NCBI RefSeq assembly: GCF_030369675.1
Contig: NZ_CP128477.1
Location: 2,170,001-2,234,000, forward strand
Length of the DNA: 64,000 bases
From: Peteryoungia algae
GTDB taxonomy: Bacteria > Pseudomonadota > Alphaproteobacteria > Rhizobiales > Rhizobiaceae
Direction of reading: 5' to 3'
Shown here: piece after piece, positions 38,785-52,801 of the stretch
How the letters are laid out: each line of letters starts with the position of its first letter
Numbering within the stretch: position 1 is the stretch's first letter
Made by a program: the position numbers and the translations under genes
Notes under the pieces: generated by a model
Database searches by the model: none
What the model was told of the DNA's origin: nothing
The model's input: only the letters and a program-made list of their open reading frames with translations

Positions 38785-39894
38785 TCAGCGTGGCGCGAAC
38801 GAAAGCGGGAAGGTCACAGCCTGGCCGGTCTGCGCCGATTGTTGGGCCGCAAGCCCCATGGCCACCGCCCACCAGCCATCGTCGAGAGCAACGTCCACCA
38901 CCCCTTCACCCCGCACAGCCTTCTGGAAACGCTGGTGCTGATAGAAGGTGGAGCCGTTGTGATCACCGGCCTCCAGCAGTTCCGGATCGACCGGAATTTC
39001 CACCACATGGGGTCCCTTGGGATCGCGTGGCGACACGATGACCTGGGCGATCGGCGGCTCGCCGAGATGTTCCGGCCAGAAGCGACCGGGACCGGGAACC
39101 AGGCATTCGATCTTCCCTTCCGGTCCCACGGCCGAGATTTCCTCCTGATAACGAGCGCCTTCCGCGAACATGCAGAGCTCGAGCATGGCCCGGGCCCCTG
39201 ACGCAAAATCGACGATGACATAGGCATTGTCCCAGATGTCAGAGGACTTGCCCTCGTAGACTTCGTCGAGATGGTTCACCGCCTGACCGCCGGACGCCAT
39301 GACACGCACCGGATCCGATTTCAGGATGTGCCGCATGAGGTCGAAGAAATGGCAGCATTTCTCCACAAGCGTCCCGCCGGTGTTGCGGTTGAACCGGTTC
39401 CAGTCACCGACCTTTTCGAGAAAGGGAAATCGATGCTCGCGAATGGTCAGCATCCGGATGCCGCCAGTCGCCTCTTCCGCCTGCGCGATCATTCGCGCGA
39501 CGGGTGGCATGTAGCGATATTCCATGGCGACCCAGATGGGGGCCGGATAGGCGGCACGCAAGGCGGCGAGACGCGGCGCATCGGCCGGATCGGTGAAAAG
39601 CGGCTTTTCGACCAGCACCGGCAGCGGGCGGATCGCGGCAATCTTTTCCAGCTGGTCAAGATGGAGGAAGTTGGGGCTCGCGATCAACAGGCAGTTCACC
39701 GCCTCGACGGCGAGCAATTCCTCGATCGAGTCGACCATTTTGGCCATAGGAACCGCCTCTGCCGACAGTGCACGCATGCCGGCATCCGGCTCAAAGATCG
39801 CCACCACCGTTGCATCCTGCAAAAGGGCGATGTTGCGCAAATGCTCCTGCCCCATCATGCCGCAACCGATGATTCCGTAATTCAGTCCTGCCAC
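38785..39894 (-). CDS. Gfo/Idh/MocA family protein; candidate NAD-dependent sulfoquinovosidase
   Basis: 369-residue protein with an N-terminal Rossmann fold (YGIIGCGMMGQEHLRN), the VEKPLFTD motif and a conserved catalytic-domain region NTGGTLVEKCCHFFDLM. Most relatives are sugar dehydrogenases. A recently described branch (GH188) comprises NAD-dependent sulfoquinovosidases that free sulfoquinovose from its glycosides. This gene lies downstream of a GntR regulator and divergent from an LLM monooxygenase, aldo-keto reductase and flavin reductase set like the sulfoquinovose monooxygenase pathway. I therefore favour that function, by context only. An ordinary dehydrogenase is the alternative. Confidence 0.7.
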   Translation of the reverse strand: MAGLNYGIIGCGMMGQEHLRNIALLQDATVVAIFEPDAGMRALSAEAVPMAKMVDSIEELLAVEAVNCLLIASPNFLHLDQLEKIAAIRPLPVLVEKPLFTDPADAPRLAALRAAYPAPIWVAMEYRYMPPVARMIAQAEEATGGIRMLTIREHRFPFLEKVGDWNRFNRNTGGTLVEKCCHFFDLMRHILKSDPVRVMASGGQAVNHLDEVYEGKSSDIWDNAYVIVDFASGARAMLELCMFAEGARYQEEISAVGPEGKIECLVPGPGRFWPEHLGEPPIAQVIVSPRDPKGPHVVEIPVDPELLEAGDHNGSTFYQHQRFQKAVRGEGVVDVALDDGWWAVAMGLAAQQSAQTGQAVTFPLSFAPR

Positions 39895-39931
39895 TCTTTC
39901 CTCCTGGGTTGGTCTGCCTTGTGCCGTGCCG

Positions 39932-40651
39932 TCATTTCAGCCGCGACACGTAGCGGGCGATGTTGTGGTCGAGCCAGGTCCGCGAAACTTCGGCGCGAAA
40001 CCCTTCCTGATCCTGGCTGATGCGTTGAATGTGGGTGACCGCTGCTCCGGGCGCCTGGCCGAAGATCGACGGCGCCCAGTCGGGCACGAGATCGAGGCCG
40101 ATCTGGTCCTCTGCCCGCGCGATCCACAGCGACAGTTTGGTCCTGTAGAAGAGATAGAGCGATTCCGACACCGCCTCGCGCTCGATCGCATCGATATAAG
40201 ATCCGTCCAGCCAGATCTCCTCGAGCGCAGCGGGCTTGCCTGAAAGGCGGCGCAGACGGCGGATGCGATGCGCCTCGCCGGAACGCCCAAAGGCAGGCAA
40301 ATCAGCCGGTTTTTCAAGGCGATCAATGGTCAGGATCTCTGCCGTCGGCAATCCACCTCCGCCCAGCAGTTCAAGCCGGAACAGCGCATAGACCGACTGC
40401 GGGTCCGAGATCGCCCGGACATAATTGCCGGACCCCTGGACTCGCTCGAGAAGCCCCCGATTTTGCAGCTCAGCCAGAGCCTTGCGCAACGTTCCCACGG
40501 CAATTCCGAGTTCCTCGGCCATGTCCCGTTCCGGCGGCAGTTTCTCCCCGTCGATCAGCCGCCCCGCCGCGATATCGCGAACGAGAAGTTCGGTGATCTG
40601 CACATAGATCGGAAGGCTGCCGGGCGGCTGGGTCGCGTGGTTCTGTGGCAT
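39932..40651 (-). CDS. GntR-family regulator, HutC/UTRA type
   Basis: 239-residue regulator. The winged helix (about residues 15-75, with LPPERDMAEELGIAVGTLRKALAEL) precedes a UTRA domain. I use the ATG at 40651, giving MPQNHATQ; a GTG 30 bases upstream is possible, and neither has a strong ribosome binding site. It starts 93 bases from the divergent LLM monooxygenase gene and is followed after 37 bases by the Gfo/Idh gene. It probably regulates both directions through the inverted repeat at 40684. Confidence 0.85.
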   Translation of the reverse strand: MPQNHATQPPGSLPIYVQITELLVRDIAAGRLIDGEKLPPERDMAEELGIAVGTLRKALAELQNRGLLERVQGSGNYVRAISDPQSVYALFRLELLGGGGLPTAEILTIDRLEKPADLPAFGRSGEAHRIRRLRRLSGKPAALEEIWLDGSYIDAIEREAVSESLYLFYRTKLSLWIARAEDQIGLDLVPDWAPSIFGQAPGAAVTHIQRISQDQEGFRAEVSRTWLDHNIARYVSRLK

Positions 40652-40683
40652 TTCTGTATCGCCGAGAAAAAATTGATACACTA

Positions 40684-40697
40684 TTGATCTACATCAA
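40684..40697. promoter_or_regulatory. Inverted repeat in the GntR / LLM monooxygenase divergent promoter
   Basis: TTGAT-CTAC-ATCAA with perfect 5-bp arms; a further TTGAT at 40673-40677 gives a second half site. It sits between the divergent starts at 40651 and 40745. It is a plausible binding site for the adjacent GntR regulator. Confidence 0.4.
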
Positions 40698-40744
40698 ATC
40701 CGGTGTTAGGCAAGAGGAAAGTTGGAGCCTTGGAGGAGACCTCA

Positions 40745-41902
40745 ATGACCATCGTACCCGTTACATCGGCAGACCTGGATGGCGCGGAAGTGTCGTGGTT
40801 CGCCGCGCTCTGCTCTGACGATTATCAATTTCTCGGCGTGCCGGACGGAGCCCTGCGCTCGAGCTTCGAACACTGCTCGGACATTGTGCAGAAGGCCGAA
40901 CAGCTCGGCTTCCGCAACATCCTTTGTCCTTCCTCCTATCAGGTGGGTCAGGACACGCTCAGCTTCGTTGCCGGTTGCGCACCGATCACCTCCAGCATCA
41001 ACATGCTGGCCGCCATCCGCTGCGGTGAGATGCAGCCGATCATGCTGGCGCGTACGGTCGCGACCCTCGACCACATGCTGAAGGGTCGTCTGACCCTCAA
41101 CGTGATCAGCTCGGATTTTCCCGGCGAAGTGGCAGACAGCGCCTTCCGCTACAAGCGCAGCCATGAGGTCGTGGAGATCCTGCGCCAGGCCTGGACGCGC
41201 GAGACGATCGACCATGAAGGCGAAGTCTACCAGTTCAAGGGTGTATCGACAGAACCCGCCCGTCCCTATCAGCAGAATGGCGGCCCCCTTCTCTACTTCG
41301 GCGGCTACTCGCCCGACGCGCTCGAACTCTGCGGTGCGCAATGCGACGTCTATCTGATGTGGCCCGAGAAGAAGGACCAGCTTGCAGAGCGGATGAAGGC
41401 CGTCCATGCCAGAGCCGAGGCCCATGGCCGCACACTGGATTATGGTCTGCGTATTCACATGATCGTCCGCGACACCGAAAAGGAAGCGCGGGAATACGCC
41501 GAATACATCGTCTCGAAGCTCGATGACGAATACGGCAAGCTGATCCGCGACCGTGCGCATGACTCGATCTCGCTCGGTGTCGCGCATCAGGCCCGTGCTC
41601 GCGAACTCGCCGACCAGTTCGGCTATATCGAACCGCACATGTGGACCGGTATCGGCCGTGCCCGTTCCGGCTGTGGTGCAGCGCTTGTCGGCTCCACGGA
41701 CCAGATCCTGTCCGAACTCGAAGCCTACCGGAAAATGGGCATCCGCGCCTTTATCCTGTCGGGATACCCGCATATCGACGAGGCCGTCCACTTTGGCACC
41801 AAGGTGCTGCCGGAACTCAAGACCGTCTCGCTCCCCCATGCTTATGGCCGCGTTCCCTCGGAAACGCCGCCCACACCTCTCGGAAATGGAGTTCGCCGCT
41901 AA
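40745..41902 (+). CDS. LLM-class flavin-dependent monooxygenase (SsuD/SmoC-like)
   Basis: 385-residue bacterial-luciferase-like enzyme that uses FMNH2 supplied by a reductase. NVISSDFPGE, ARSGCGAALVGSTDQI and FILSGYPHIDEAVHFG resemble alkanesulfonate monooxygenases, which convert a sulfonate to an aldehyde and sulfite. The ATG at 40745 follows TTGGAGGAG. Next come an aldo-keto reductase overlapping by one base and a flavin reductase. That trio is the composition of the sulfoquinovose monooxygenase pathway of Agrobacterium (SmoC, SmoB, SmoA), in which this enzyme would yield 6-oxo-glucose and sulfite. Other sulfonates cannot be ruled out. Confidence 0.82.
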   Translation: MTIVPVTSADLDGAEVSWFAALCSDDYQFLGVPDGALRSSFEHCSDIVQKAEQLGFRNILCPSSYQVGQDTLSFVAGCAPITSSINMLAAIRCGEMQPIMLARTVATLDHMLKGRLTLNVISSDFPGEVADSAFRYKRSHEVVEILRQAWTRETIDHEGEVYQFKGVSTEPARPYQQNGGPLLYFGGYSPDALELCGAQCDVYLMWPEKKDQLAERMKAVHARAEAHGRTLDYGLRIHMIVRDTEKEAREYAEYIVSKLDDEYGKLIRDRAHDSISLGVAHQARARELADQFGYIEPHMWTGIGRARSGCGAALVGSTDQILSELEAYRKMGIRAFILSGYPHIDEAVHFGTKVLPELKTVSLPHAYGRVPSETPPTPLGNGVRR

Positions 41903-42795
41903 TGCAGCGCGTCAATCTCACCCCAGACCTAACTTTCAGTCGCCTTGTCTACGGCATGTGGCGCATCGGTGACGATGCCGACACGTCGGCGAAACATGTC
42001 CAGGCCAAGATCGAGGCCTGCCTCGCCCAGGGCATCACCACGATGGACCAGGCTGACATCTATGGCGGCTATACGGCGGAGGCCGTGCTCGGCAACGCCT
42101 TGAAGGCCGCGCCTGGACTGCGCGACAAGCTCGAAATCGTGACCAAATGCGATATCGTGGCACCTGCCGGCCGCCATCAGGCAGCACGCGTTAAGCACTA
42201 CGACACGTCGGCTGCCCATATCACCGCGTCCGTCGAAGCCTCGCTTTCTGACATGGGCACGGATCACGTCGACCTGCTCCTGATCCATCGTCCCGATCCG
42301 CTGATCGACCCCGACGAGACAGGTCCGGCGCTCGATGCGCTGGTCGCCTCCGGCAAGGTGCTCGCGGTCGGCGTTTCCAACTTCCGCCCTTGGGACATCT
42401 CGCTCCTGCAGTCTTCGATGGAGAACAATCTCGTCACCAACCAGATCGAGATGAGCCTGCTGGCAACAGACACCTTCGTGAACGGTGATCTCGCCTATCT
42501 GCAGGAGCGCATGGTCCCGCCCATGGCCTGGTCTCCGCTTGGCGGCGGGCGCCTCATGGACGGATCAAAGCCGGAACTCTTGGCCGCCTTGAAGCGGATC
42601 GGCGTCGAACACGGCGTCGATGAAACGGCGGTCGCCGTCGCCTGGCTGCTGCGCCATCCTGCGACCATCCTGCCGGTCATGGGCACCAATTCGCTCGAAC
42701 GCATCGCCAGGATCGCAGACGCGACCAAGGTGGATATGGATCGCCAGACTTGGTTCGAACTTTACACACTCGCGATCGGACGGGAGGTTGCCTGA
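41902..42795 (+). CDS. Aldo-keto reductase (YdhF/SmoB-like)
   Basis: 297-residue AKR. The catalytic tetrad is D49, Y54 (in DIYGGY), K82 (TKCDIV) and H129 (LLIHRPDP). The C-terminal RQTWFELYTLAIG is shared, to my memory, with the Agrobacterium 6-oxo-glucose reductase SmoB and the E. coli YdhF group. In the predicted pathway it would reduce the aldehyde from the monooxygenase to glucose. It overlaps the monooxygenase gene stop by one base and the flavin reductase gene by one base. Confidence 0.87.
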   Translation: MQRVNLTPDLTFSRLVYGMWRIGDDADTSAKHVQAKIEACLAQGITTMDQADIYGGYTAEAVLGNALKAAPGLRDKLEIVTKCDIVAPAGRHQAARVKHYDTSAAHITASVEASLSDMGTDHVDLLLIHRPDPLIDPDETGPALDALVASGKVLAVGVSNFRPWDISLLQSSMENNLVTNQIEMSLLATDTFVNGDLAYLQERMVPPMAWSPLGGGRLMDGSKPELLAALKRIGVEHGVDETAVAVAWLLRHPATILPVMGTNSLERIARIADATKVDMDRQTWFELYTLAIGREVA

Positions 42796-43313
42796 TGATG
42801 GCTGCCAATGACATTCATGCACTGGAAGCCGTCTTCGTTCCAGGAGGCGACAATCATCGCGCCTTTCGCAACGCGCTCGGCAGCTTCACCACGGGCGTGA
42901 CCGTGGTGACCGCCATGACCGACGACGGTCCAATTGGCATGACCGTCAACAGCTTCGCCTCCGTCTCGCTAGATCCACCGCTGGTGCTGTGGTCGCCGGC
43001 CAAGAGCTCGTCGAGATATCGCGCCTTCACCGGCGCCGGGCATTTCGCGATCCATGTTCTGGGCGCAGATCAGGATCATCTGAGCGCCGCGTTCACACGC
43101 GGGGGCAGCGGTTTCGATGGCATCGAGGTTTGCCTCAACGACGAGGAGGTACCAGTCCTGCCGGGCACGCTCGCGCGTTTCGAATGCATCCAGCAGGCAC
43201 AGCACGACGCAGGGGATCATACGCTCGTCATAGGCAGGGTGTTGAGAGTTGCGCATCGGCAGGGAGAACCGCTGTGTTTCTCGGGTGGACGGTTCGGACG
43301 CTTCGCCGTCTGA
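42795..43313 (+). CDS. Flavin reductase family protein
   Basis: 172-residue flavin reductase of the FMN_red (HpaC-like) group. FTTGVTVVTAM, GMTVNSFASVSLDPPLVLWSPAKSS and GHFAIHVLGADQDHL are characteristic. It should supply FMNH2 to the LLM monooxygenase encoded two genes earlier, making a two-component system. The start ATG overlaps the previous stop. The open frame before it lies in the aldo-keto reductase gene. Confidence 0.9.
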   Translation: MMAANDIHALEAVFVPGGDNHRAFRNALGSFTTGVTVVTAMTDDGPIGMTVNSFASVSLDPPLVLWSPAKSSSRYRAFTGAGHFAIHVLGADQDHLSAAFTRGGSGFDGIEVCLNDEEVPVLPGTLARFECIQQAQHDAGDHTLVIGRVLRVAHRQGEPLCFSGGRFGRFAV

Positions 43314-43504
43314 GTTAAAATGGGAGGACGTCGTCGGCGCATGCCGTGCATGCTGCGGCGAGACGATCGAGGAACACAGGAACAAGTGAACGCGGGAGAT
43401 TTTGCTCCCGCGGAATCTGGAACCGGAACGACCGTGCTTGCGCGGGCTGGAGTTGTCTTCGATCGTTTTGCCGATTTGACCGATGACAAGAAATGGGTGG
43501 AGTC

Positions 43505-44095
43505 ATGACGGCACTTTCGAATCTGACCAATCTGCTCGGACGGCTGAATGCCGCCGTCCTGACCCTTGGTCTCTGGCTGGGAGCCGGAGCTCTCGGCATT
43601 ATGCTCGTCTTTATATTGGTGCAGGTTTTCTTTCGCTACATTCTCGGCGACGCCCTGGCATGGAGCGAAGAAGCATCACGTTTCCTCATGCTCTGGATGA
43701 CCGGATTGATGGTCCCGACGGCCTTCCGTCAGGGCGGCTTCGTCGCGATCACGATGATCCTCGACATCTTTCCGCGCGTGATCGGCACCATCATCGCCTT
43801 GCTCTTTCTCGGCCTCTCGGCCGTGCTGCTCTTTGTCGGTATGCGTATCGGCTGGGCCGAAGCGACAGGCTTGGGCGGGCGTTTCGCCATGCCCGCGATT
43901 GCCGTGCCCACGTCGCTTGATCTGAGCACGTGGATGAAGGTGCCTCGTAGCTGGATGATGGCGTCGCTCGCGGCAGGCGTAACCATGATGTTCGTGGTCA
44001 ACATCGAACTGATCCTGCGTGGCCTGCTGGAATTGTTTGGACGTGGTGAGAGGCTGCAGCCCATCACCACCTTCGGCGGCCTGGGAGCTGAATGA
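43505..44095 (+). CDS. TRAP transporter small permease (DctQ)
   Basis: 196-residue membrane protein with four hydrophobic segments and the DctQ-type core RYILGDALAWSEEASRFLMLWMTGLM. I start at 43505 with GGAG just upstream. It is preceded by a 191-base gap that has no credible gene and overlaps the large permease gene by 4 bases. TRAP transporters import acids by sodium or proton symport. Here the likely substrate is a sulfonate, given the neighbours. Confidence 0.88.
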   Translation: MTALSNLTNLLGRLNAAVLTLGLWLGAGALGIMLVFILVQVFFRYILGDALAWSEEASRFLMLWMTGLMVPTAFRQGGFVAITMILDIFPRVIGTIIALLFLGLSAVLLFVGMRIGWAEATGLGGRFAMPAIAVPTSLDLSTWMKVPRSWMMASLAAGVTMMFVVNIELILRGLLELFGRGERLQPITTFGGLGAE

Positions 44096-45384
44096 TGCTC
44101 AGCCTTTTCCTTCCGCTCTTCATGGTTCTTCTGCTGCTCGGTTTCCCGATCGTCTTCGGCCTGATCGCAGCACCCGCCATCCTGCTCTGGCTGAATGGCC
44201 AGGAGCGCGACATCGTGCTGCTTTACCGAAACGTCTATAACGGGATGGATAGCTTCCCGCTGATGGCGATCCCCTTCTTCATGCTGGCCGGAGAGTTGAT
44301 GAACCGGGCCGGCATTACCATGCGCCTGGTCGAATTCGCCCAGGCCGTCATAGGGCATCTGCGCGGCGGGCTTGCCCACGTCAACATCCTGTCGTCAATG
44401 CTGTTCGCCGGTCTCTCCGGCTCGGCCGTTGCGGATGTTTCGGCGCTGGGCTCCATGCTGATCCCCGCCATGGAAAAACAGGGCTACAGCCGTCGGTTTG
44501 CAACGGCCGTCACGGCAGCATCGTCCATCATCGGTCCGATCATCCCGCCATCCGGCATTATGATCATCTATGCCTATGTCATGGGTGAGAGCGTCGCGGC
44601 CCTGTTTCTCGCCGGCATCGTGCCCGGTGTCCTCATCGGCATCAGCCTGATGGTGATCGTTTATCTTCTGGCGGATCGCGAAAACCTCCCGGCCGCGACG
44701 AAGCGTGCCTCCTGGTCGGAGCGCGGGCGCGCAAGCCTCAACGCATTCTGGCCGCTGATGACCCCCGTCATCATCATGGGCGGCATTCTCGGCGGCATCT
44801 TCACCCCGACGGAAGCGTCTGCGGTTGCCGTCGGTTATGCCATCTTCATTGGCCTGTTCGTGCTGCGCACCCTCAATGTCGCCGACATGCCGAAAATCCT
44901 CATGCGCGCTGCAATGACGTCGGCCGTCGTCCTGTTGCTCGTGGGAGCGGCAATGGCGTTCAAGACTGTCGCCAGCCTGTCGCACACGCCGGAACTGCTC
45001 GCTTCGATTATCCTGAGCCTGAGCGACAACCCGCTCGTCCTGCTTCTGCTGATAAACCTGCTGCTGTTTGTCGTCGGCATGTTCCTCGATGCAGGCCCCG
45101 CGATCATCATCCTCGGACCGATCCTCGGCCCGATCTTCACCCAAATGGGTGTGGACTCCGTTCACTTCGCCATCATCATGGCGGTGAACCTGACAGTCGG
45201 CCTCCTGACCCCACCCATGGGTCTGGTGCTCTTCGTGTCCTCGTCTGTTTCGGGGCTTCGCGTCGAGACGATTGCAAAAGCCACCTTGCCATTCCTGGCG
45301 GCGGAAATCGTGGTGATCTTCCTGATCACCTACTTCCCCGCCTTGACCCTGACGGTCCCGCGCCTTGCGGGCTTCGTTGACTAA
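44092..45384 (+). CDS. TRAP transporter large permease (DctM)
   Basis: 430-residue membrane protein of the DctM family with about twelve hydrophobic segments. GIMIIYAYVMGESVAALFLAGIVPG and VNLTVGLLTPPMGLVLFVSSSVSG are typical. It is translationally coupled to the small permease by a 4-base overlap and is followed by the binding-protein gene after 24 bases. Confidence 0.92.
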   Translation: MMLSLFLPLFMVLLLLGFPIVFGLIAAPAILLWLNGQERDIVLLYRNVYNGMDSFPLMAIPFFMLAGELMNRAGITMRLVEFAQAVIGHLRGGLAHVNILSSMLFAGLSGSAVADVSALGSMLIPAMEKQGYSRRFATAVTAASSIIGPIIPPSGIMIIYAYVMGESVAALFLAGIVPGVLIGISLMVIVYLLADRENLPAATKRASWSERGRASLNAFWPLMTPVIIMGGILGGIFTPTEASAVAVGYAIFIGLFVLRTLNVADMPKILMRAAMTSAVVLLLVGAAMAFKTVASLSHTPELLASIILSLSDNPLVLLLLINLLLFVVGMFLDAGPAIIILGPILGPIFTQMGVDSVHFAIIMAVNLTVGLLTPPMGLVLFVSSSVSGLRVETIAKATLPFLAAEIVVIFLITYFPALTLTVPRLAGFVD

Positions 45385-45408
45385 CTTGAGAAAACGGGAG
45401 GAACCAGA

Positions 45409-46464
45409 ATGCTCAAGTCCATGTTTAAGACCCTGCTGCTCGCCAGCGCATTGACAATCACGGGAGTGGCGCAGGCAGCAGACATCACGCTGCGCGCTAC
45501 CGCCAATTCCAACGAGAACGACGAGGACTATGACGGTCTCGTCGTGTTCAAGAACTATATCGAGAACGCCTCGAATGGCACGATGGCCGTCGAGCTCTTC
45601 ATGGGAACGCAGCTGTGCGCCACCGGCGAGGAATGCCTGCAAGGCGTCGCCGACGGCTCGCTCGACGTCTACATCTCGACCTCGGGCGGGGCTGCCGGCC
45701 TCTTCCCCTATATCCAGGTGCTCGACCTGCCCTACCTGATGAGCGATGACCGGATTGCAGAGGAAGTGCTGACCGGTGACTTCACCCGCAAGCTGCGCGA
45801 GAAGGCACTGGCCGACAGCGACAACAAGATCCGCCTGATGACGATCGGTAACACCGGCGGCTGGCGCAACTACGCCAACACGAAACAGCCGGTAAAGTCG
45901 CCGGAAGACCTCAAGGGTCTGAAGATGCGCACGGTCCCGGCAGACCTGCCGCAGCAGGTTGCGACCGCCGTGGGTGCAGCACCCACCCCGATCCCGTGGC
46001 CGGAGCTTTTCACCTCGCTGCAGACGGGTGTAGTTGAAGGAACTGCCAACGGCATCACGGACATCATGTCGATGAAGTTCCCGGATGCGGGCCTGAAATA
46101 CCTGACGCTCGACGGCCACAGCTACATGGGTGCCTTCTGGTGGATGTCCAACGACCGTTTCCAGGGCCTGACGCCCGAGCAGAAGCAGATCGTCGTTGAC
46201 GGCTTCGCCGCGCTTCAGCAGGCGACGTTTGCATCACCGAAGCGCAAGGAAATCGCCGCCTATCAGGACTTCCTCAAGGCCGGCGGCGAGATCTACGTGC
46301 CGACACCTGCCGAGAAGGAAGCCTTCAAGACCTCCGTCTCGCCTGTCTTCGACTGGTTCAAGACAAACGTCACCGGCGGAGCTGAAGTGTTCGACCAGTT
46401 CACGGCAGCGGTCGCCGATGCTCAGGCGAAGGTCGACGCCGACCGCGCGGCTGATCTCAACTGA
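45409..46464 (+). CDS. TRAP transporter substrate-binding protein (DctP)
   Basis: 351-residue periplasmic binding protein with a signal peptide ending at GVAQA. QVLDLPYLMSDDRIAEEVL and LKGLKMRTVPADLPQQVATAVGAAPTPIPWPELFTSLQTGVVEGTANG are characteristic of the DctP family. The conserved Arg in MRTVP commonly binds a carboxylate; here it might bind a sulfonate. It is followed by a hairpin at 46471. Confidence 0.92.
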   Translation: MLKSMFKTLLLASALTITGVAQAADITLRATANSNENDEDYDGLVVFKNYIENASNGTMAVELFMGTQLCATGEECLQGVADGSLDVYISTSGGAAGLFPYIQVLDLPYLMSDDRIAEEVLTGDFTRKLREKALADSDNKIRLMTIGNTGGWRNYANTKQPVKSPEDLKGLKMRTVPADLPQQVATAVGAAPTPIPWPELFTSLQTGVVEGTANGITDIMSMKFPDAGLKYLTLDGHSYMGAFWWMSNDRFQGLTPEQKQIVVDGFAALQQATFASPKRKEIAAYQDFLKAGGEIYVPTPAEKEAFKTSVSPVFDWFKTNVTGGAEVFDQFTAAVADAQAKVDADRAADLN

Positions 46465-46470
46465 CAACCA

Positions 46471-46497
46471 GGGATGCGCGGTATACCCGCGCATCCC
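46471..46497 (+). other. Hairpin after the DctP gene
   Basis: Stem GGGATGCGCGG/CCGCGCATCCC (one pair beyond the 10-bp perfect core) with a 5-base loop, 6 bases past the dctP stop. No T run follows. It may protect the binding-protein mRNA or partly terminate before the YeiH-type gene. Confidence 0.55.
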
Positions 46498-46557
46498 ACC
46501 CGCCCCCGGCATCTGGTGATGCCGACAATCCCCCGGGCGAAATTCCAGAGGTGATCC

Positions 46558-47604
46558 ATGCCAGAACCGTCAACCGTCTCGCCCGATCCGGAGCGGGAGC
46601 GCCAGTCTCCGACCAGGAGCGCGCGCTGGCAGATGCTGTTCCCCGGACTTTCGGTGACCGTTCTCATCGCATTGGCATCGGCCTTCCTGTCGGAACACTA
46701 TGGCGCACCGGCCATGCTGCTTGCGATCCTCATCGGGCTTGCCCTGCATTTCCTGGCCGAAGACCCGAAGACCACAGCCGGTCTCGACTTCGCTTCGCGT
46801 ACCGTTCTTCGCCTTGGCATCGCCCTGCTCGGCCTGAGGGTGAGCGTTGCAATGTTCGCCGAACTGGGTGCCGCAGTGATCGTGATGATCGTCAGCGCCG
46901 TCCTTCTCACCATTGCATTCGGCATCCTCGCCTCACGCCTCTCTGGACAAGGCACGCCCTTCGGCGTCCTGACCGGTGGCGCGGTCGCAATTTGTGGCGC
47001 TTCTGCCGCCCTCGCGATTTCGGCGGCCCTCGGCAACCGCAGCAAGGAAGCCGACCAGCAGATGGTCTTCACGGTCATCGGCGTCACGATGCTGTCGACG
47101 CTCGCGATGATCTTCTACCCGATCCTCGCAAGTCTGGCGGGACTGGATGATCACCAGACCGGCATATTCCTCGGCGCGACAATCCACGATGTCGCACAGG
47201 TTGCCGGCGCCGGCTTCTCCGTATCCGTGCCAGCAGGTGAGACTGCCGTATTCGTCAAGCTCATCCGCGTCACCATGCTTGCACCTGTGGTTCTGGTGGC
47301 AGCACTCGCCTTCCGAAGCACTGTCTCCGGCGATCTCAAGCGCCCGCCGATGTTGCCGGGCTTCGTGGTGGCCTTTCTGCTGCTTGCCGCTGTGAACTCG
47401 ATGATCGCCATTCCGCCAATCGTCGCGGATTGGGCAGGCACACTTTCCCGTTGGGCCCTTCTCGTCGCCATTGCTGCCGTTGGCGTGAAAACCTCCCTGC
47501 CCGAAGTCTTCAAGATCGGTGGTCGAGCCATTGGCCTTCTCGTCGCAGATACCGTGTTCCTGGCCGCACTCGTGCTGGCAGTTCTGCTTTTCGTAGGGGT
47601 TTGA
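46558..47604 (+). CDS. yeiH: YeiH/UPF0324 family putative sulfate/sulfite exporter
   Basis: 348-residue membrane protein with about ten hydrophobic segments and the UPF0324 core GAVAICGASAALAISAAL and GIFLGATIHDVAQVAGAG. The family is annotated as a putative sulfate exporter and related to bacterial proteins next to taurine or sulfonate catabolism genes. It lies 93 bases after the TRAP genes, facing the same way, so disposal of sulfite or sulfate from the monooxygenase reaction is the likely role. The ATG at 46558 follows AGAGGTGA. Confidence 0.85.
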   Translation: MPEPSTVSPDPERERQSPTRSARWQMLFPGLSVTVLIALASAFLSEHYGAPAMLLAILIGLALHFLAEDPKTTAGLDFASRTVLRLGIALLGLRVSVAMFAELGAAVIVMIVSAVLLTIAFGILASRLSGQGTPFGVLTGGAVAICGASAALAISAALGNRSKEADQQMVFTVIGVTMLSTLAMIFYPILASLAGLDDHQTGIFLGATIHDVAQVAGAGFSVSVPAGETAVFVKLIRVTMLAPVVLVAALAFRSTVSGDLKRPPMLPGFVVAFLLLAAVNSMIAIPPIVADWAGTLSRWALLVAIAAVGVKTSLPEVFKIGGRAIGLLVADTVFLAALVLAVLLFVGV

Positions 47605-47692: not shown

Positions 47693-48352
47693 ATGGCCAA
47701 GACCCCGAAGGCAGCGCCGAAAGAACGTAAGCCTGCGCTGACGCAGGATCCCCATGCCGTGCGCGAGCCCCGCGCCAACAATCTGGAAATGGCAATCGGC
47801 CACGAGGTCCGCACATATCGCAAGAAACTCGGGATCACGGTCGCCGATCTCGCCGCGTCCACCGGCATGTCGGTCGGCATGCTCTCGAAGATCGAGAACG
47901 GCAACATATCGCCTTCGCTGACAACGCTTCAGGCGCTGTCGAAGGCGCTGGGCATGCCGATCACGGCCTTCTTCAAGGGATTTGAGGAGCCGAAGTCGGC
48001 AAGTTTCGTCAAGGCGGGCGAAGGTGTGAATCTTGAGCGCCGGGGAACCCGTGCCGGTCATCACTACAGCCTGCTCGGGCATATCGAGAACAATAGCTCA
48101 GGCGTGGTCGTCGAGCCCTATATCATCACCCTGAATGCTGAATCCGACGTCTTCCCGACCTTCCAGCACGAAGGCATGGAGTTCCTCTACATGCTGGAAG
48201 GCGAAGTCGTCTATCGTCACGGGGACAGCCTCTACCGCATGCGGATGGGCGATAGCCTCTTCTTCGACGCCGATGCACCGCACGGCCCGGAAGAACTCGT
48301 CACCCTGCCTGCACGCTACCTCTCGATCATTTCCTATCCCCAACGGCGCTAG
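47693..48352 (+). CDS. XRE-family regulator with C-terminal cupin domain
   Basis: 219-residue regulator. An N-terminal lambda-repressor-type HTH spans about residues 35-92 (LAASTGMSVGMLSKIENGNISPSLTTLQAL). A cupin_2 domain spans about 140-212 (FQHEGMEFLYMLEGEVVYRHGDSLY then DSLFFDADAPHGPE). The first ~28 residues are Lys/Pro-rich. Such regulators often sense amino acids or polyamines. It lies 87 bases upstream of glxB in the same direction and is the likely controller of glxBCD-glnT. It could also be linked to the sulfonate genes just upstream. Confidence 0.88.
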   Translation: MAKTPKAAPKERKPALTQDPHAVREPRANNLEMAIGHEVRTYRKKLGITVADLAASTGMSVGMLSKIENGNISPSLTTLQALSKALGMPITAFFKGFEEPKSASFVKAGEGVNLERRGTRAGHHYSLLGHIENNSSGVVVEPYIITLNAESDVFPTFQHEGMEFLYMLEGEVVYRHGDSLYRMRMGDSLFFDADAPHGPEELVTLPARYLSIISYPQRR

Positions 48353-48439: not shown

Positions 48440-49345
48440 ATGTGCGGAATCGTGGGTCTGTTTTTGAAAGACAAGTCGCTGGAGCCTCGGCTGGGCGAAT
48501 TGCTCTCTGACATGCTGATCACCATGACCGACCGTGGGCCGGACTCGGCCGGCATCGCCATTTACGGCAGCGTGGATGGAAAGACCGCCAAGATCACTAT
48601 CCAGTCGGCGACCCCCGAAGGCGATTTCGCCGGGCTGGTCGATGATCTCGCCCAGGCCGGCATCGACGCCGAAGTCTGCCTCAAGAGCACCCATGCGGTC
48701 ATCGCGATCGACATGGGACAACTGGCGGCAATTCGTCCGGTCCTTGCCGAAATCCGGCCGAACGTCCGCATCATGGGCTCCGGCGAGAGCGTCGAAATCT
48801 TCAAGGAAGTCGGTCTGCCGAAGGATGTCGTACAGCGCTTCGGCGTCCGCGCCATGGGCGGCACGCACGGCATCGGCCATACCCGCATGGCAACGGAGAG
48901 CGCCGTAACCACCCTTGGCGCACACCCCTTTTCGACGGGGGCAGACCAATGCCTGGTGCACAACGGCTCTCTGTCGAACCACAACAACCTGCGCCGCGAG
49001 CTGATCCGTGAAGGCATGCGTTTCGAGACGCAGAACGACTCCGAAGTGGCCGCCGCCTATCTCACGGCACAAATGGCAAAGGGCAAGGACCTCGGCCAGG
49101 CCCTGACCGGCGCGTTGGACGATCTCGACGGCTTCTTCACGTTTGTCGTCGGGACCAAGACAGGCTTCGGCGTCGTGCGCGACCCGATCGCCTGCAAGCC
49201 CGCCGTCATGGCCGAGACCGACCAGTATGTCGCCTTCGGTTCCGAGTATCGCGCCCTCGTCAACCTGCCGGGCATCGAGACCGCCCGAGTCTGGGAGCCG
49301 GAACCGGCGACCGTCTATTTCTGGGACCACGACAAGGCCGCCTGA
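48440..49345 (+). CDS. glxB: Class II glutamine amidotransferase (GlxB/MgsA-like)
   Basis: 301-residue glutaminase subunit with the Ntn nucleophile Cys directly after the initiator Met (MCGIVGLF). HGIGHTRMATESAV and HNGSLSNHNNLRREL are GATase II motifs. With GlxC and GlxD it forms a split version of glutamate synthase; homologous MgsABC makes N-methylglutamate from methylamine and glutamate. AGTACGGAGG upstream is a good ribosome binding site. Spacing to glxC is 28 bases. Confidence 0.88.
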   Translation: MCGIVGLFLKDKSLEPRLGELLSDMLITMTDRGPDSAGIAIYGSVDGKTAKITIQSATPEGDFAGLVDDLAQAGIDAEVCLKSTHAVIAIDMGQLAAIRPVLAEIRPNVRIMGSGESVEIFKEVGLPKDVVQRFGVRAMGGTHGIGHTRMATESAVTTLGAHPFSTGADQCLVHNGSLSNHNNLRRELIREGMRFETQNDSEVAAAYLTAQMAKGKDLGQALTGALDDLDGFFTFVVGTKTGFGVVRDPIACKPAVMAETDQYVAFGSEYRALVNLPGIETARVWEPEPATVYFWDHDKAA

Positions 49346-49373
49346 TCCGCTCCCCTTCGAGAAAGCTTGCCGA

Positions 49374-50060
49374 ATGCCAGTCTTCGACCTCTCCCAAACC
49401 CCGCTTCGAGAATTGAACAGCGCGCTCCACAATCTCGGCGCAAGCTCGAATGACACCCTGTTCGAAGTGGTAAACCCGCGCGGCCACCATGCGGTTGCCG
49501 TCGGCATCGATGGTCCTGTGACGGTCGAGGTCAAGGGTTCCGTGGGCTACTACTGCGCCGGCATGAATGATGGCGGGACGGTCACCGTTGATGGCTCCGC
49601 CGGTCCGGGCGTGGCCGAAAACATGATGTCCGGCACTGTCGTGATCGAGGGCGACGCCAGCCAGTATGCCGGTGCCACAGGTCGCGGCGGCCTGCTCGTC
49701 ATCAGGGGCAATGCAGCCTCCCGATGCGGCATCTCCATGAAGGGCATCGACATCGTCGTGCACGGCTCGATCGGCCATATGTCCGCTTTCATGGGTCAAT
49801 CGGGTCACCTCATTGTCTGCGGCGACGCAGGCGAAGCGCTGGGCGACAGCATTTACGAAGCAAAGCTCTTCGTTCGAGGCTCGGTGAAGAGCCTCGGCGC
49901 CGATTGCATCGAGAAAGAGATGCGCCCGGAACATCTTGAAAAGCTCGCCGAACTCCTGGGCAAAGCGGGTGTGACGCAGGCCAAGCCAGAAGAGTTCAAG
50001 CGCTACGGATCGGCCCGCAAGCTCTACAATTTCAACATCGACAATGCCGACGCGTATTGA
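49374..50060 (+). CDS. glxC: GXGXG-domain protein, glutamate-synthase alpha C-terminal-like (GlxC/MgsB-like)
   Basis: 228-residue right-handed beta-helix protein matching the C-terminal GXGXG domain of GltB. Repeated Gly-rich strands include GTVTVDGSAGPGVAENMMSG and GATGRGGLLVIRGNAASRCG. It has no catalytic centre of its own and scaffolds the glutaminase and synthase subunits. The start at 49374 gives MPVFDLSQ; a longer frame reads back into glxB. Confidence 0.87.
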   Translation: MPVFDLSQTPLRELNSALHNLGASSNDTLFEVVNPRGHHAVAVGIDGPVTVEVKGSVGYYCAGMNDGGTVTVDGSAGPGVAENMMSGTVVIEGDASQYAGATGRGGLLVIRGNAASRCGISMKGIDIVVHGSIGHMSAFMGQSGHLIVCGDAGEALGDSIYEAKLFVRGSVKSLGADCIEKEMRPEHLEKLAELLGKAGVTQAKPEEFKRYGSARKLYNFNIDNADAY

Positions 50061-50075
50061 GGCGAGGAAAAGCTG

Positions 50076-51404
50076 ATGAGCTACCACAACCCCTTCACCC
50101 CGCCGCGCAAGTCTGCCACCTTCGATGACCATACGCTCGCCGAGATCCGCCGTGCGGCCGCAACCGGCATCTACGACATCCGCGGCGGCGGCACGAAGCG
50201 GAAGGTGCCACATTTCGACGACCTGCTCTTCCTCGGCGCCTCGATCTCCCGCTATCCGCTCGAAGGTTATCGCGAGAAGTGCGACACCTCGGTTGTCCTC
50301 GGCACCCGCTTTGCGAAAAAGCCGATCGAACTGAAGATCCCGATCACCATCGCTGGCATGAGCTTCGGCGCGCTCTCGGGCAATGCCAAGGAAGCGCTCG
50401 GACGCGGCGCGACGCTCGGCGGCACATCGACGACGACGGGCGACGGCGGCATGACCGACGAGGAGCGCGGCCATTCCGAAAAGCTGGTCTATCAGTATCT
50501 TCCGTCCCGCTATGGCATGAACCCGAAAGACCTGCGTCGCGCCGATGCGATCGAGATCGTGGTCGGCCAAGGCGCCAAGCCCGGCGGCGGCGGCATGTTG
50601 CTCGGCCAGAAGATTTCCGATCGCGTCGCCCAGATGCGCAACCTTCCGGTGGGCATCGACCAGCGCTCCGCCTGCCGCCACCCGGACTGGACCGGCCCCG
50701 ATGATCTGGAGATCAAGATCCTCGAACTGCGCGAGATCACAGACTGGGAAAAGCCGATCTATGTGAAAGTCGGCGGCGCCCGACCCTATTATGACACAGC
50801 CCTTGCCGTGAAGGCCGGCGCGGATGTTGTGGTGCTGGATGGCATGCAGGGCGGAACGGCTGCAACGCAGGACGTCTTCATCGAGAATGTCGGCATGCCG
50901 ACGCTTGCCTGTATCCGCCCCGCCGTTCAAGCGCTGCAGGATCTCGGCATGCATCGCAAGGTCCAGCTGGTGATTTCGGGCGGCATCCGCTCAGGCGCTG
51001 ATGTCGCCAAGGCTCTGGCCCTCGGCGCAGACGCCGTGGCAATCGGTACGGCAGCACTCGTTGCGATCGGCGACAACGATCCGCAATGGGAAGAGGAATA
51101 CAGACAACTTGGCACCACCGCTGGCGCCTATGACGACTGGCATGAGGGCAAGGACCCCGCCGGCATCACCACCCAGGATCCCGAGCTTGCCGCCCGCCTC
51201 GATCCGGTCGCTGCCGGACGCAGGCTCGCCAACTATCTGAAGGTGATGACGTTGGAGGCGCAGACCATCGCCCGCGCCTGCGGCAAGAACAAGCTGCACA
51301 ATCTGGAGCCGGAGGACCTCTGCGCGCTCACGATGGAGGCCGCCGCCATGGCCCAGGTGCCACTCGCCGGCACCAGCTGGTTTCCCGGCAAGGGAGCTTT
51401 CTAG
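50076..51404 (+). CDS. glxD: FMN-binding glutamate synthase-like subunit (GlxD/MgsC-like)
   Basis: 442-residue FMN-dependent TIM-barrel subunit like the synthase domain of GltB. MSFGALSGNAKEALGRGA, VVLDGMQGGTAATQ and SGGIRSGADVAKALALGADAVAIGTAAL are the family motifs. It would use ammonia from GlxB for amination, or methylamine if it behaves like MgsC. It follows glxC by 15 bases and is followed by a terminator. Confidence 0.9.
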   Translation: MSYHNPFTPPRKSATFDDHTLAEIRRAAATGIYDIRGGGTKRKVPHFDDLLFLGASISRYPLEGYREKCDTSVVLGTRFAKKPIELKIPITIAGMSFGALSGNAKEALGRGATLGGTSTTTGDGGMTDEERGHSEKLVYQYLPSRYGMNPKDLRRADAIEIVVGQGAKPGGGGMLLGQKISDRVAQMRNLPVGIDQRSACRHPDWTGPDDLEIKILELREITDWEKPIYVKVGGARPYYDTALAVKAGADVVVLDGMQGGTAATQDVFIENVGMPTLACIRPAVQALQDLGMHRKVQLVISGGIRSGADVAKALALGADAVAIGTAALVAIGDNDPQWEEEYRQLGTTAGAYDDWHEGKDPAGITTQDPELAARLDPVAAGRRLANYLKVMTLEAQTIARACGKNKLHNLEPEDLCALTMEAAAMAQVPLAGTSWFPGKGAF

Positions 51405-51412
51405 AAATCCTG

Positions 51413-51454
51413 ATGGCCGCATCCGACTCCCACGGATGCGGCCATTCTTCTTAT
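51413..51454 (+). terminator. Intrinsic terminator/attenuator between glxD and glnT
   Basis: ATGGCCGCATCCG-ACTCCCA-CGGATGCGGCCAT (51413-51445), a 13-bp perfect stem, followed by TCTTCTTATC. It lies 8 bases after glxD and 39 bases before glnT, so glnT either has its own promoter or is expressed by read-through. Confidence 0.75.
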
Positions 51455-51493
51455 CTGAACATGTGTCTCAATCCATAAAAACAGGGGAACGAC

Positions 51494-52801
51494 GTGACAC
51501 AGGATCTGGCAGGCTTCGCTGCGGAGCGGGGCATCAAATATTTCATGATCAGCTATACGGACCTCTTCGGCGCCCAGCGCGCCAAGCTGGTCCCCTCACA
51601 GGCGATCGCCGAGATGCAGAGGGACGGCGCGGGCTTTGCGGGCTTTGCCACCTGGCTCGATCTGACACCGGCCCATCCCGACCTCTTTGCCATTCCCGAT
51701 GCATCATCGGTCATCCAGCTGCCGTGGAAGCAGGATGTCGCCTGGGTCGCCGCCGATTGCATGATGGACGATCAGCCGGTGGCCCAGGCGCCGCGCGTGA
51801 TGCTGAAGAAGCTGGTCGCCGAGGCAGCGGAGCTCGGGCTTCGCGTCAAGACCGGCGTGGAACCGGAATTCTTCCTGATTTCGCCGGATGGCGAGGCGAT
51901 TTCGGACCCGTACGACACCGCCGAGAAGCCCTGCTATGACCAGCAGGCGCTCATGCGTCGCTACGATGTGATCGCCGAAATCTGCGACCACATGCTCTCA
52001 CTCGGCTGGAAACCCTATCAGAACGACCACGAGGACGCGAACGGCCAGTTCGAGATGAATTGGGAATATGACGACGCGCTGAAGACCGCCGACAAGCATT
52101 CCTTCTTCAAGTTCATGGTCAAGTCGGTGGCGGAAAAACATGGGCTGCGCGCCACGTTCATGCCCAAACCCTTCAAGGGCCTGACGGGTAACGGCTGCCA
52201 TGCCCATATCTCGGTCTGGGACCGCGACGGGAAGGTCAATGCCTTCGCCGACAAGGACATGCCCTTCGGCCTCTCCGCCAAGGGCAAGACCTTCCTTGGC
52301 GGCATCATGAAACATGCTTCCGCCCTGGCCGCGATCACCAATCCGACGGTCAACTCCTACAAGCGCATCAATGCGCCGCGGACGGTTTCCGGCGCCACAT
52401 GGGCACCGAACACGGTGACATGGACCGGAAACAACCGCACCCACATGGTCCGCGTGCCCGGTCCTGGCCGCTTTGAACTGCGACTGCCTGACGGCGCCGT
52501 GAACCCCTATCTTTTGCAGTCGATCATCATTGCGGCGGGCTTGAGCGGGCTGAAGAGCAATGCCGATCCCGGTCCGCATTATGACATCGACATGTACCGC
52601 GAAGGACACATGGTGAAGGATGCGCCCCGGCTGCCGCTGAACCTCCTCGACGCGCTCCGCGCCTTCGAAAAGGACGACGAGCTGAAAGCTGCGCTCGGCG
52701 CGGAGTTTTCAGAGGCCTATCTCAAGCTCAAGCATGACGAGTGGAACGGCTACTGCACGCATTTCACCGTCTGGGAGCGCCAGACGACGCTGGACATCTG
52801 A
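51494..52801 (+). CDS. glnT: Type III glutamine synthetase-like enzyme (GlnT)
   Basis: 435-residue glutamine synthetase family enzyme of the rhizobial GlnT/gamma-glutamylmethylamide synthetase branch. Metal and ATP site segments visible include KTGVEPEFFLIS, EDANGQFEMNWEYDDALKTAD, GNGCHAHISVWD and NRTHMVRVPGPGRFELRLPDGAVNPYLL. It may make glutamine, gamma-glutamylmethylamide or another gamma-glutamyl amide. The start is GTG after AGGGGAA. The gene order glxB-glxC-glxD-glnT is a known rhizobial arrangement. It converges with the ABC operon at 52817. Confidence 0.87.
   Translation: MTQDLAGFAAERGIKYFMISYTDLFGAQRAKLVPSQAIAEMQRDGAGFAGFATWLDLTPAHPDLFAIPDASSVIQLPWKQDVAWVAADCMMDDQPVAQAPRVMLKKLVAEAAELGLRVKTGVEPEFFLISPDGEAISDPYDTAEKPCYDQQALMRRYDVIAEICDHMLSLGWKPYQNDHEDANGQFEMNWEYDDALKTADKHSFFKFMVKSVAEKHGLRATFMPKPFKGLTGNGCHAHISVWDRDGKVNAFADKDMPFGLSAKGKTFLGGIMKHASALAAITNPTVNSYKRINAPRTVSGATWAPNTVTWTGNNRTHMVRVPGPGRFELRLPDGAVNPYLLQSIIIAAGLSGLKSNADPGPHYDIDMYREGHMVKDAPRLPLNLLDALRAFEKDDELKAALGAEFSEAYLKLKHDEWNGYCTHFTVWERQTTLDI

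Follow-up and report, generated by a model that had tools for sequence, protein, structure and literature searches.

Sulfoquinovose (SQ) output amounts to billions of tons per year according to the available text of PMC10755693, and SQ import is termed poorly characterised in the accessible part of a 2022 paper (PMC8873060). For the SQ monooxygenase pathway (sulfo-SMO, also sulfo-ASMO) of Agrobacterium tumefaciens and its relatives, the available part of PMC13372026 takes SmoB and SmoC encoded within ten open reading frames (ORFs) as the mark of a cluster. Enzymes of glycoside hydrolase family 188 (GH188) are reported in sulfo-SMO clusters without family 31 enzymes (GH31), near-universally so in roseobacters (PMC10755693, in its available text). 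Here we describe a nine-gene cluster in a 64,000-nucleotide stretch of the Peteryoungia algae genome (contig NZ_CP128477.1, positions 2,170,001 to 2,234,000; hereafter the window). Whereas Agrobacterium-type loci have a GH31 sulfoquinovosidase (SQase) and an ATP-binding cassette (ABC) importer, this cluster has a GH188 SQase, a tripartite ATP-independent periplasmic (TRAP) transporter and a YeiH-family protein. It is very likely a sulfo-SMO operon for SQ and its glycosides, with import by DctPQM, deglycosylation by SqgA, desulfonation by SmoCAB, export through the YeiH-family protein and repression by a GntR protein. Sulfo-SMO, GH188 and their association are already published, and the enzymes themselves are nothing new in kind; the new element would be the TRAP subfamily, which is probably dedicated to SQ and/or its glyceride and common to two unrelated SQ pathways across Alphaproteobacteria.

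Organisation of the cluster

The cluster (38785–47604) lies in a 4.4 Mb single-contig genome and comprises two divergent units, a leftward one of sqgA and a GntR/UTRA regulator and a rightward one of smoC-smoB-smoA-dctQ-dctM-dctP-yeiH, with the following features:

38785..39894, minus strand: sqgA, predicted GH188 NAD+-dependent sulfoquinovosidase with a Gfo/Idh/MocA fold (PDB matches, contact residues)
39932..40651 (5' end approximate), minus strand: smoD-like GntR/UTRA regulator (PF07702 and PF00392 above cut-off)
40673..40697, plus strand: operator-like site TTGATACACTATTGATCTACATCAA, between regulator and smoC (conservation across smoC loci)
40745..41902, plus strand: smoC, predicted FMNH2-dependent sulfoquinovose monooxygenase of the luciferase-like monooxygenase (LLM) family (identity to 7olf/7oh2)
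41902..42795, plus strand: smoB, predicted 6-dehydroglucose reductase of the aldo-keto reductase (AKR) family (identity to 7bby)
42795..43313, plus strand: smoA, predicted NAD(P)H flavin reductase (PF01613)
43493..44095, plus strand: dctQ, TRAP small permease (PF04290, 65 bits, cut-off 28.3)
44092..45384, plus strand: dctM, TRAP large permease (TIGR00786, 437 bits, cut-off 268; PF06808)
45409..46464, plus strand: dctP, TRAP solute-binding protein, proposed SQ or SQ-glycerol binder (PF03480)
46558..47604, plus strand: YeiH-family membrane protein, probable sulfite exporter (PF03601)

The frames of all nine genes are unbroken at these coordinates, and each junction among smoC, smoB and smoA has a one-base overlap, in agreement with the sequence-only reading of this stretch, which had named all of these genes but the regulator and described the three enzyme genes as overlapping. 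The TRAP genes are in the order Q-M-P, and all three subunits are identified (PF03480, PF04290 and PF06808 above cut-off). A separate promoter or terminator 5' of dctQ was rejected: matches were no more numerous than in shuffled sequence, and none falls in the smoA-dctQ gap. The closest SmoC sequences (98% identity) come from Peteryoungia and Rhizobium records. The nine-gene order is repeated in 11 named or metagenome-assembled Rhizobiaceae loci (L006–L016; fetched loci are numbered with the prefix L) at 74–99% protein identity, most of the Gfo/Idh gene of L013 lying past its contig end; with the order conserved in this way, the arrangement is not due to chance.

Predicted desulfonation enzymes

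SmoB and SmoC are encoded by adjacent genes, and thus within ten ORFs, and a flavin reductase gene of the PF01613 family, as looked for in a sulfo-SMO cluster, overlaps smoB. SmoC is identical to 7olf at 336 of 383 positions (88%) and to 7oh2 at 328 of 383 (86%), and SmoB is identical to 7bby at 237 of 296 (80%); we take 7olf and 7oh2 to be SQ monooxygenases and 7bby to be SmoB. The names given in the PDB to 7olf, 7oh2 and 7bby are methanesulfonate sulfonatase, alkanesulfonate monooxygenase and aryl-alcohol dehydrogenase; the reading of 7bby as SmoB is supported by the SmoB of a sulfo-SMO-type locus of Agrobacterium pusense (L024), which is 96% identical to it. Grouping of the LLM protein with SsuD, which the sequence-only reading had named as the outcome that would overturn it, was not found: identity to E. 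coli SsuD (1nqk) is 124 of 357 (35%), the protein scores 242 bits on the equivalog model for SsuD (cut-off 518), and identity as SsuD was rejected on these two values. The AKR has its best match in 7bby (523 bits) and not in YdhF (232 bits). SmoA matches PF01613 (127 bits, cut-off 27) and scores below cut-off on the FerA model (224 against 260 bits); it is 65–79% identical to the flavin reductase adjoining smoCB in Agrobacterium loci (L022, L024, L031) and by homology is its orthologue. With SmoC and SmoB each far closer to SQ enzymes than to other members of their families, the proposal of an SQ catabolic cluster of the sulfo-SMO type is supported.

The smoB and smoA queries found no close match in the fetched stretch of six smoC loci (L027, L033, L034, L039, L040, L043), which another reductase may serve.

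Predicted sulfoquinovosidase

The best PDB matches of the Gfo/Idh protein are 8zn9 (548 bits, 68% identity), 8qc3 (389 bits, 54% identity) and 8qc2 (383 bits), the next family scoring 51 bits. According to the available text of PMC10755693, 8QC3 is ArSqgA and 8QC2 is FlSqgA, and the sulfonate-binding residues of ArSqgA are Arg166, Leu170 and Lys172; a literature search on 8ZN9 returned unrelated papers only. Hand mapping on the alignment with ArSqgA finds all eight SQ-contact residues kept (K97/Lys107, Y126/Tyr136, R155/Arg166, L159/Leu170, K161/Lys172, E178/Glu189, H182/His193 and H312/His321), including the sulfonate-binding trio as R155, L159 and K161. The numbering of Glu163, as named in the available text of PMC10755693, is unmatched: judged by its spacing from Arg166, the glutamate in the EHRFPFL motif common to both proteins would be residue 164. 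That glutamate is kept (E153). By homology the Gfo/Idh protein is a GH188 NAD+-dependent SQase, predicted to be cytoplasmic because no signal peptide was seen by eye; its identity as an inositol dehydrogenase was rejected (TIGR04380, 96 bits, cut-off 355).

With the Gfo/Idh protein as the SQase, the cluster would be a full sulfo-SMO set of SQase, monooxygenase, two reductases, importer, probable sulfite exporter, GntR regulator and operator-like site. The Gfo/Idh gene had earlier been counted, with the YeiH-type exporter gene, as an addition to such a set; both genes are present, and the former, at 54% identity to ArSqgA, is no extra. PF01055 (GH31) has no match in this single-contig, 99.9%-complete genome, and the same search was positive in 6 of 14 control genomes. 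The presence of GH188 and absence of GH31 fit the complementary pattern described in the available text of PMC10755693.

A DctP subfamily linked to two SQ pathways

DctP has a signal peptide, seen by eye, and its Arg153 and Arg174 are invariant in 25 aligned relatives, presumably as the motif typical of TRAP binding proteins. Relatives were sought, whatever adjoins them, in an order sample (an even draw of 397 genomes) and a class sample (385 genomes). DctP proteins of at least 64% identity occur in 28 genomes, which represent 18 genera; 27 of the proteins are full length and one is partial. Of the 28 genes, 24 adjoin SQ-type genes. Fifteen adjoin SmoC. Nine others, with no SmoC beside DctP, adjoin genes for a fucose-isomerase-like protein, a PfkB kinase and a DeoC/LacD-family aldolase, mostly with an aldose epimerase and in four cases with an aldehyde dehydrogenase. 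The available text of PMC9594981 notes hybrid clusters of the SQ Embden-Meyerhof-Parnas pathway (sulfo-EMP), in which a SqvD-type isomerase occurs with YihV/YihT/YihR-type enzymes, and by these families the nine-locus set is assigned to the hybrid sulfo-EMP pathway. The nearest PDB chain to its kinase is sulfofructose kinase 7ag6 (181 bits; next 173), and the isomerase has no match in the PDB. GH188 is found in four of the nine loci (L116, L124–L126) and GH31 in four (L117–L119, L121), and the remaining one (L123) is a 5-kb contig.

As a control we used 20 loci, a subset of many rows in the order sample, with DctP at 30–39% identity. None carries SmoC, SqgA, GH31, the isomerase or the aldolase, while three carry a kinase at 25–27% and one an aldehyde dehydrogenase at 32%. 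The difference in SQ linkage between close and distant DctP gives a Fisher p of 1.3e-9, under a linkage rule fixed after the first loci had been inspected, the control being run later with the same queries. At 41–51% identity, SQ-type genes are present in four of the seven loci fetched, of 19 genomes. Because the two pathways share their substrate and SQase and not their products, the common factor would be SQ or its glycoside, and it is this gene linkage that points to the cargo of the transporter. A literature search found no paper naming a TRAP importer for SQ; the main sulfo-SMO and roseobacter SQ papers lay outside that search and may mention one.

Many TRAP loci, in both pathways (L108, L109, L114; L116, L120, L122, L124–L128), also encode, close to dctP, a Sel1/TPR protein and a MauG-type di-haem cytochrome c peroxidase, which are absent in the window.

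Importer and SQase types among SmoC loci

Of 582 confirmed SmoC loci in a contig database, the 80 best, a sample biased to close relatives, comprise GH188 with TRAP (22), GH188 with an ABC solute-binding protein (17), GH188 without an importer found (5), GH31 with ABC (33), GH31 with a cut contig (2) and a cut contig with neither (1), the GH188 call for L013 being made manually on a partial gene. In none of these 80 do the two SQases occur together, nor do the two importers, and the 22 TRAP loci yielded no ABC solute-binding protein. In the order sample, the 20 genomes with SmoC at E <= 1e-120 have TRAP in ten cases (window included), ABC in nine and neither in one, and their SQases are GH188 (17), GH31 (2) and cut (1). 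SmoC is found at E <= 1e-100 in 22 plasmid records, of which we examined the 11 most similar: ten carry dctQMP and one, Marinovum algicola DG898, an ABC importer. The samples overlap, with 108 distinct entries among 111 SmoC rows.

TRAP is one of two common importer types in sulfo-SMO clusters. The sequence-only reading was right that TRAP replaces the ABC importer here; a TRAP importer peculiar to this genome is excluded by its presence in 22 of 80, 10 of 20 and 10 of 11 loci. All 22 TRAP loci have GH188 (p = 3.6e-8 from raw counts), and on the SmoC tree the importer has switched at least eight times and the SQase six times. On a plasmid of Qingshengfaniella alkalisoli (L110), dctQMP directly follows smoC, and smoB, smoA and sqgA were not found in the stretch.

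Regulator, operator-like site and probable sulfite outlet

A GntR regulator was found 5' of smoC, with set thresholds applied, in 106 of 110 fetched SmoC loci. The candidate starts of the regulator in the window are GTG 40681 and ATG 40651, of which the latter seems likelier because the operator-like site overlaps 40681. In 97 of 111 loci, counting the window, the 200 bases upstream of smoC contain the pattern TTGATACA-N2-ATTGAT; the copy in L092 is just outside the 200-base slice, and several other misses hold near-variants. The full 25-base site has a single match in the genome when up to three mismatches are allowed, and the reversed-pattern control gives none. Two copies are present in 20 fetched loci, and in all three Agrobacterium-type loci inspected (L022, L024, L055) the second copy is 5' of the ABC importer operon, which would place the importer under the same site. 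Here one site would be enough because the TRAP genes follow smoA. The pattern points to joint control of enzymes and importer by the GntR protein, presumably by repression. The site is in none of 20 DctP-relative loci fetched, a set that includes 13 without adjacent SmoC.

The YeiH-family protein matches PF03601 (209 bits, cut-off 24.5) and is below the curated cut-off of TIGR00698, the putative sulfate exporter model (127 against 233 bits); its gene is present in 14 of the 22 TRAP loci. Only MsrP (486 bits, cut-off 207) represents PF00174 in the genome, so that a sulfite oxidase of the PF00174 family is absent, other sulfite-oxidising enzymes not having been searched for. With no such oxidase an exporter is to be expected, and export via the YeiH-family protein is the likeliest outlet for sulfite. 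We found no paper linking SQ with YeiH.

Proposed pathway and alternatives

Established here are the families to which the enzymes belong, the conservation of active-site residues in SqgA, the order of the genes, the conservation of the operator-like site, and the fact that the DctP subfamily is linked to SQ pathways; every enzyme activity in the cluster is predicted from homology. In the pathway that we propose, periplasmic DctP would bind the anion, SQ-glycerol and/or SQ, for DctQM to carry it inward by ion symport. Cytoplasmic SqgA would remove the aglycone via a transient NAD+-dependent oxidation at C3; SmoC, with FMNH2 from SmoA and O2, would cut the C–S bond to give sulfite and 6-dehydroglucose, which SmoB would reduce to glucose. 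Sulfite would exit through the YeiH-family protein, and the GntR protein would repress both divergent units from 40673–40697 until an SQ-type inducer binds.

Several observations weigh against this account. SQ binding, transport and growth on SQ are predicted from the genes, and no solved protein is closer to DctP than 4p47 (128 bits). Of the 28 close DctP genes, four lack SQ genes as neighbours: two of these (L127, L128) have SmoC on another contig of the same genome, and the other two (L120, L122) adjoin a PhyH dioxygenase, with no known SQ pathway recognised. At 41–51% identity, three of the seven fetched loci are without an SQ link. In the hybrid sulfo-EMP set the isomerase reaches only 29.2 bits on PF02952 (cut-off 29.3), the aldolase is nearest to 8tnf, which bears an uncharacterised name, and the GH31 proteins are only 28–29% identical to that of Agrobacterium. 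The link between TRAP and GH188 is not significant on the SmoC tree, which offers four independent pairs only, and on that count we rejected the idea that their pairing is a statistically secured rule. The PhyH-family dioxygenase genes (L120:7887-8666, L122:13155-13880) possibly represent another oxygen-dependent desulfonation route.

One alternative is that TRAP imports free SQ only, SqgA serving SQ glycosides taken up by a different route. In size, free SQ, the smaller of the two, is closer to known TRAP cargo, and nothing in the sequence tells SQ from SQ-glycerol as cargo; yet an NAD+-dependent, predicted cytoplasmic SqgA in the same regulated unit leads one to expect glycoside import, and no second importer was found in the TRAP loci, which leaves this a possible but less favoured version. 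It is rather improbable that the enzymes degrade SQ while the transporter carries a short-chain sulfonate or carboxylate (isethionate, sulfolactate or a sugar acid) and SQ enters elsewhere. One of the nearer solved proteins is 8t9t, a DctP for isethionate (110 bits, 127 bits by profile), and L120 and L122 have the same DctP subfamily with no recognisable SQ pathway. However, the subfamily tracks SQ in two pathways that are unrelated and have in common their substrate and SQase, not short-chain products, its close members are rare outside SQ loci (4 of 28), and the TRAP loci lack a detected ABC solute-binding protein. Least probable is action of the cluster on another sulfosugar, such as sulfofucose, or on another alkanesulfonate: substrates are assigned by homology and SmoC belongs to the wider SsuD/LLM superfamily, but SmoC, SmoB and SqgA are each far closer to SQ enzymes than to other members of their families, the sulfonate-contact residues of SqgA are kept, and sulfofucose breakdown relies on other enzymes in the available text of PMC12421959.

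Neighbouring genes

Rightward of the cluster, 48440–52801 (plus strand) encodes a class II amidotransferase, a protein without an NCBIfam match, a glutamate-synthase-domain protein and a type III glutamine synthetase (TIGR03105, 675 bits, cut-off 470), preceded by a helix-turn-helix–cupin regulator at 47693–48352. We take this region to resemble the mgsABC-gmaS methylamine cluster.

Comparison with known systems

If the proposal is true, the SQ-linked TRAP subfamily would be a pathway-independent marker for SQ uptake, would account for uptake by many roseobacters and some rhizobia, and would give this very abundant sulfo-sugar a symport-driven route of entry in place of the ATP-driven SmoEFGH-type importer.

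The present locus shares with the A. tumefaciens sulfo-SMO system orthologues of SmoC, SmoB, SmoA and the GntR regulator in the same order, and the same operator-like site (compare L024 and L031). The isethionate (8t9t) and sialic acid (SiaP) TRAP transporters share the DctP fold and the arginines that are typical of TRAP binding proteins but reach only 86–110 bits, the present DctP belonging to a separate, unsolved subfamily. That subfamily (68–72% identity) and the GH188 SQase are shared with the hybrid sulfo-EMP loci L116 and L124–L126, which differ in having no monooxygenase, carbon-chain cleavage rather than desulfonation, and a DeoR regulator. The roseobacter-clade sulfo-SMO loci likewise have a GH188 SQase with SmoCBA (PMC10755693, in its available text). 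There dctQMP directly follows smoA also in Ruegeria sp. TM1040 (L109), THAF33 and AD91A, in Roseivivax, in Salipiger and in Paracoccus seriniphilus; the layout is essentially that of the present cluster and SmoC is 74–81% identical, although the YeiH-family gene is not always adjacent.

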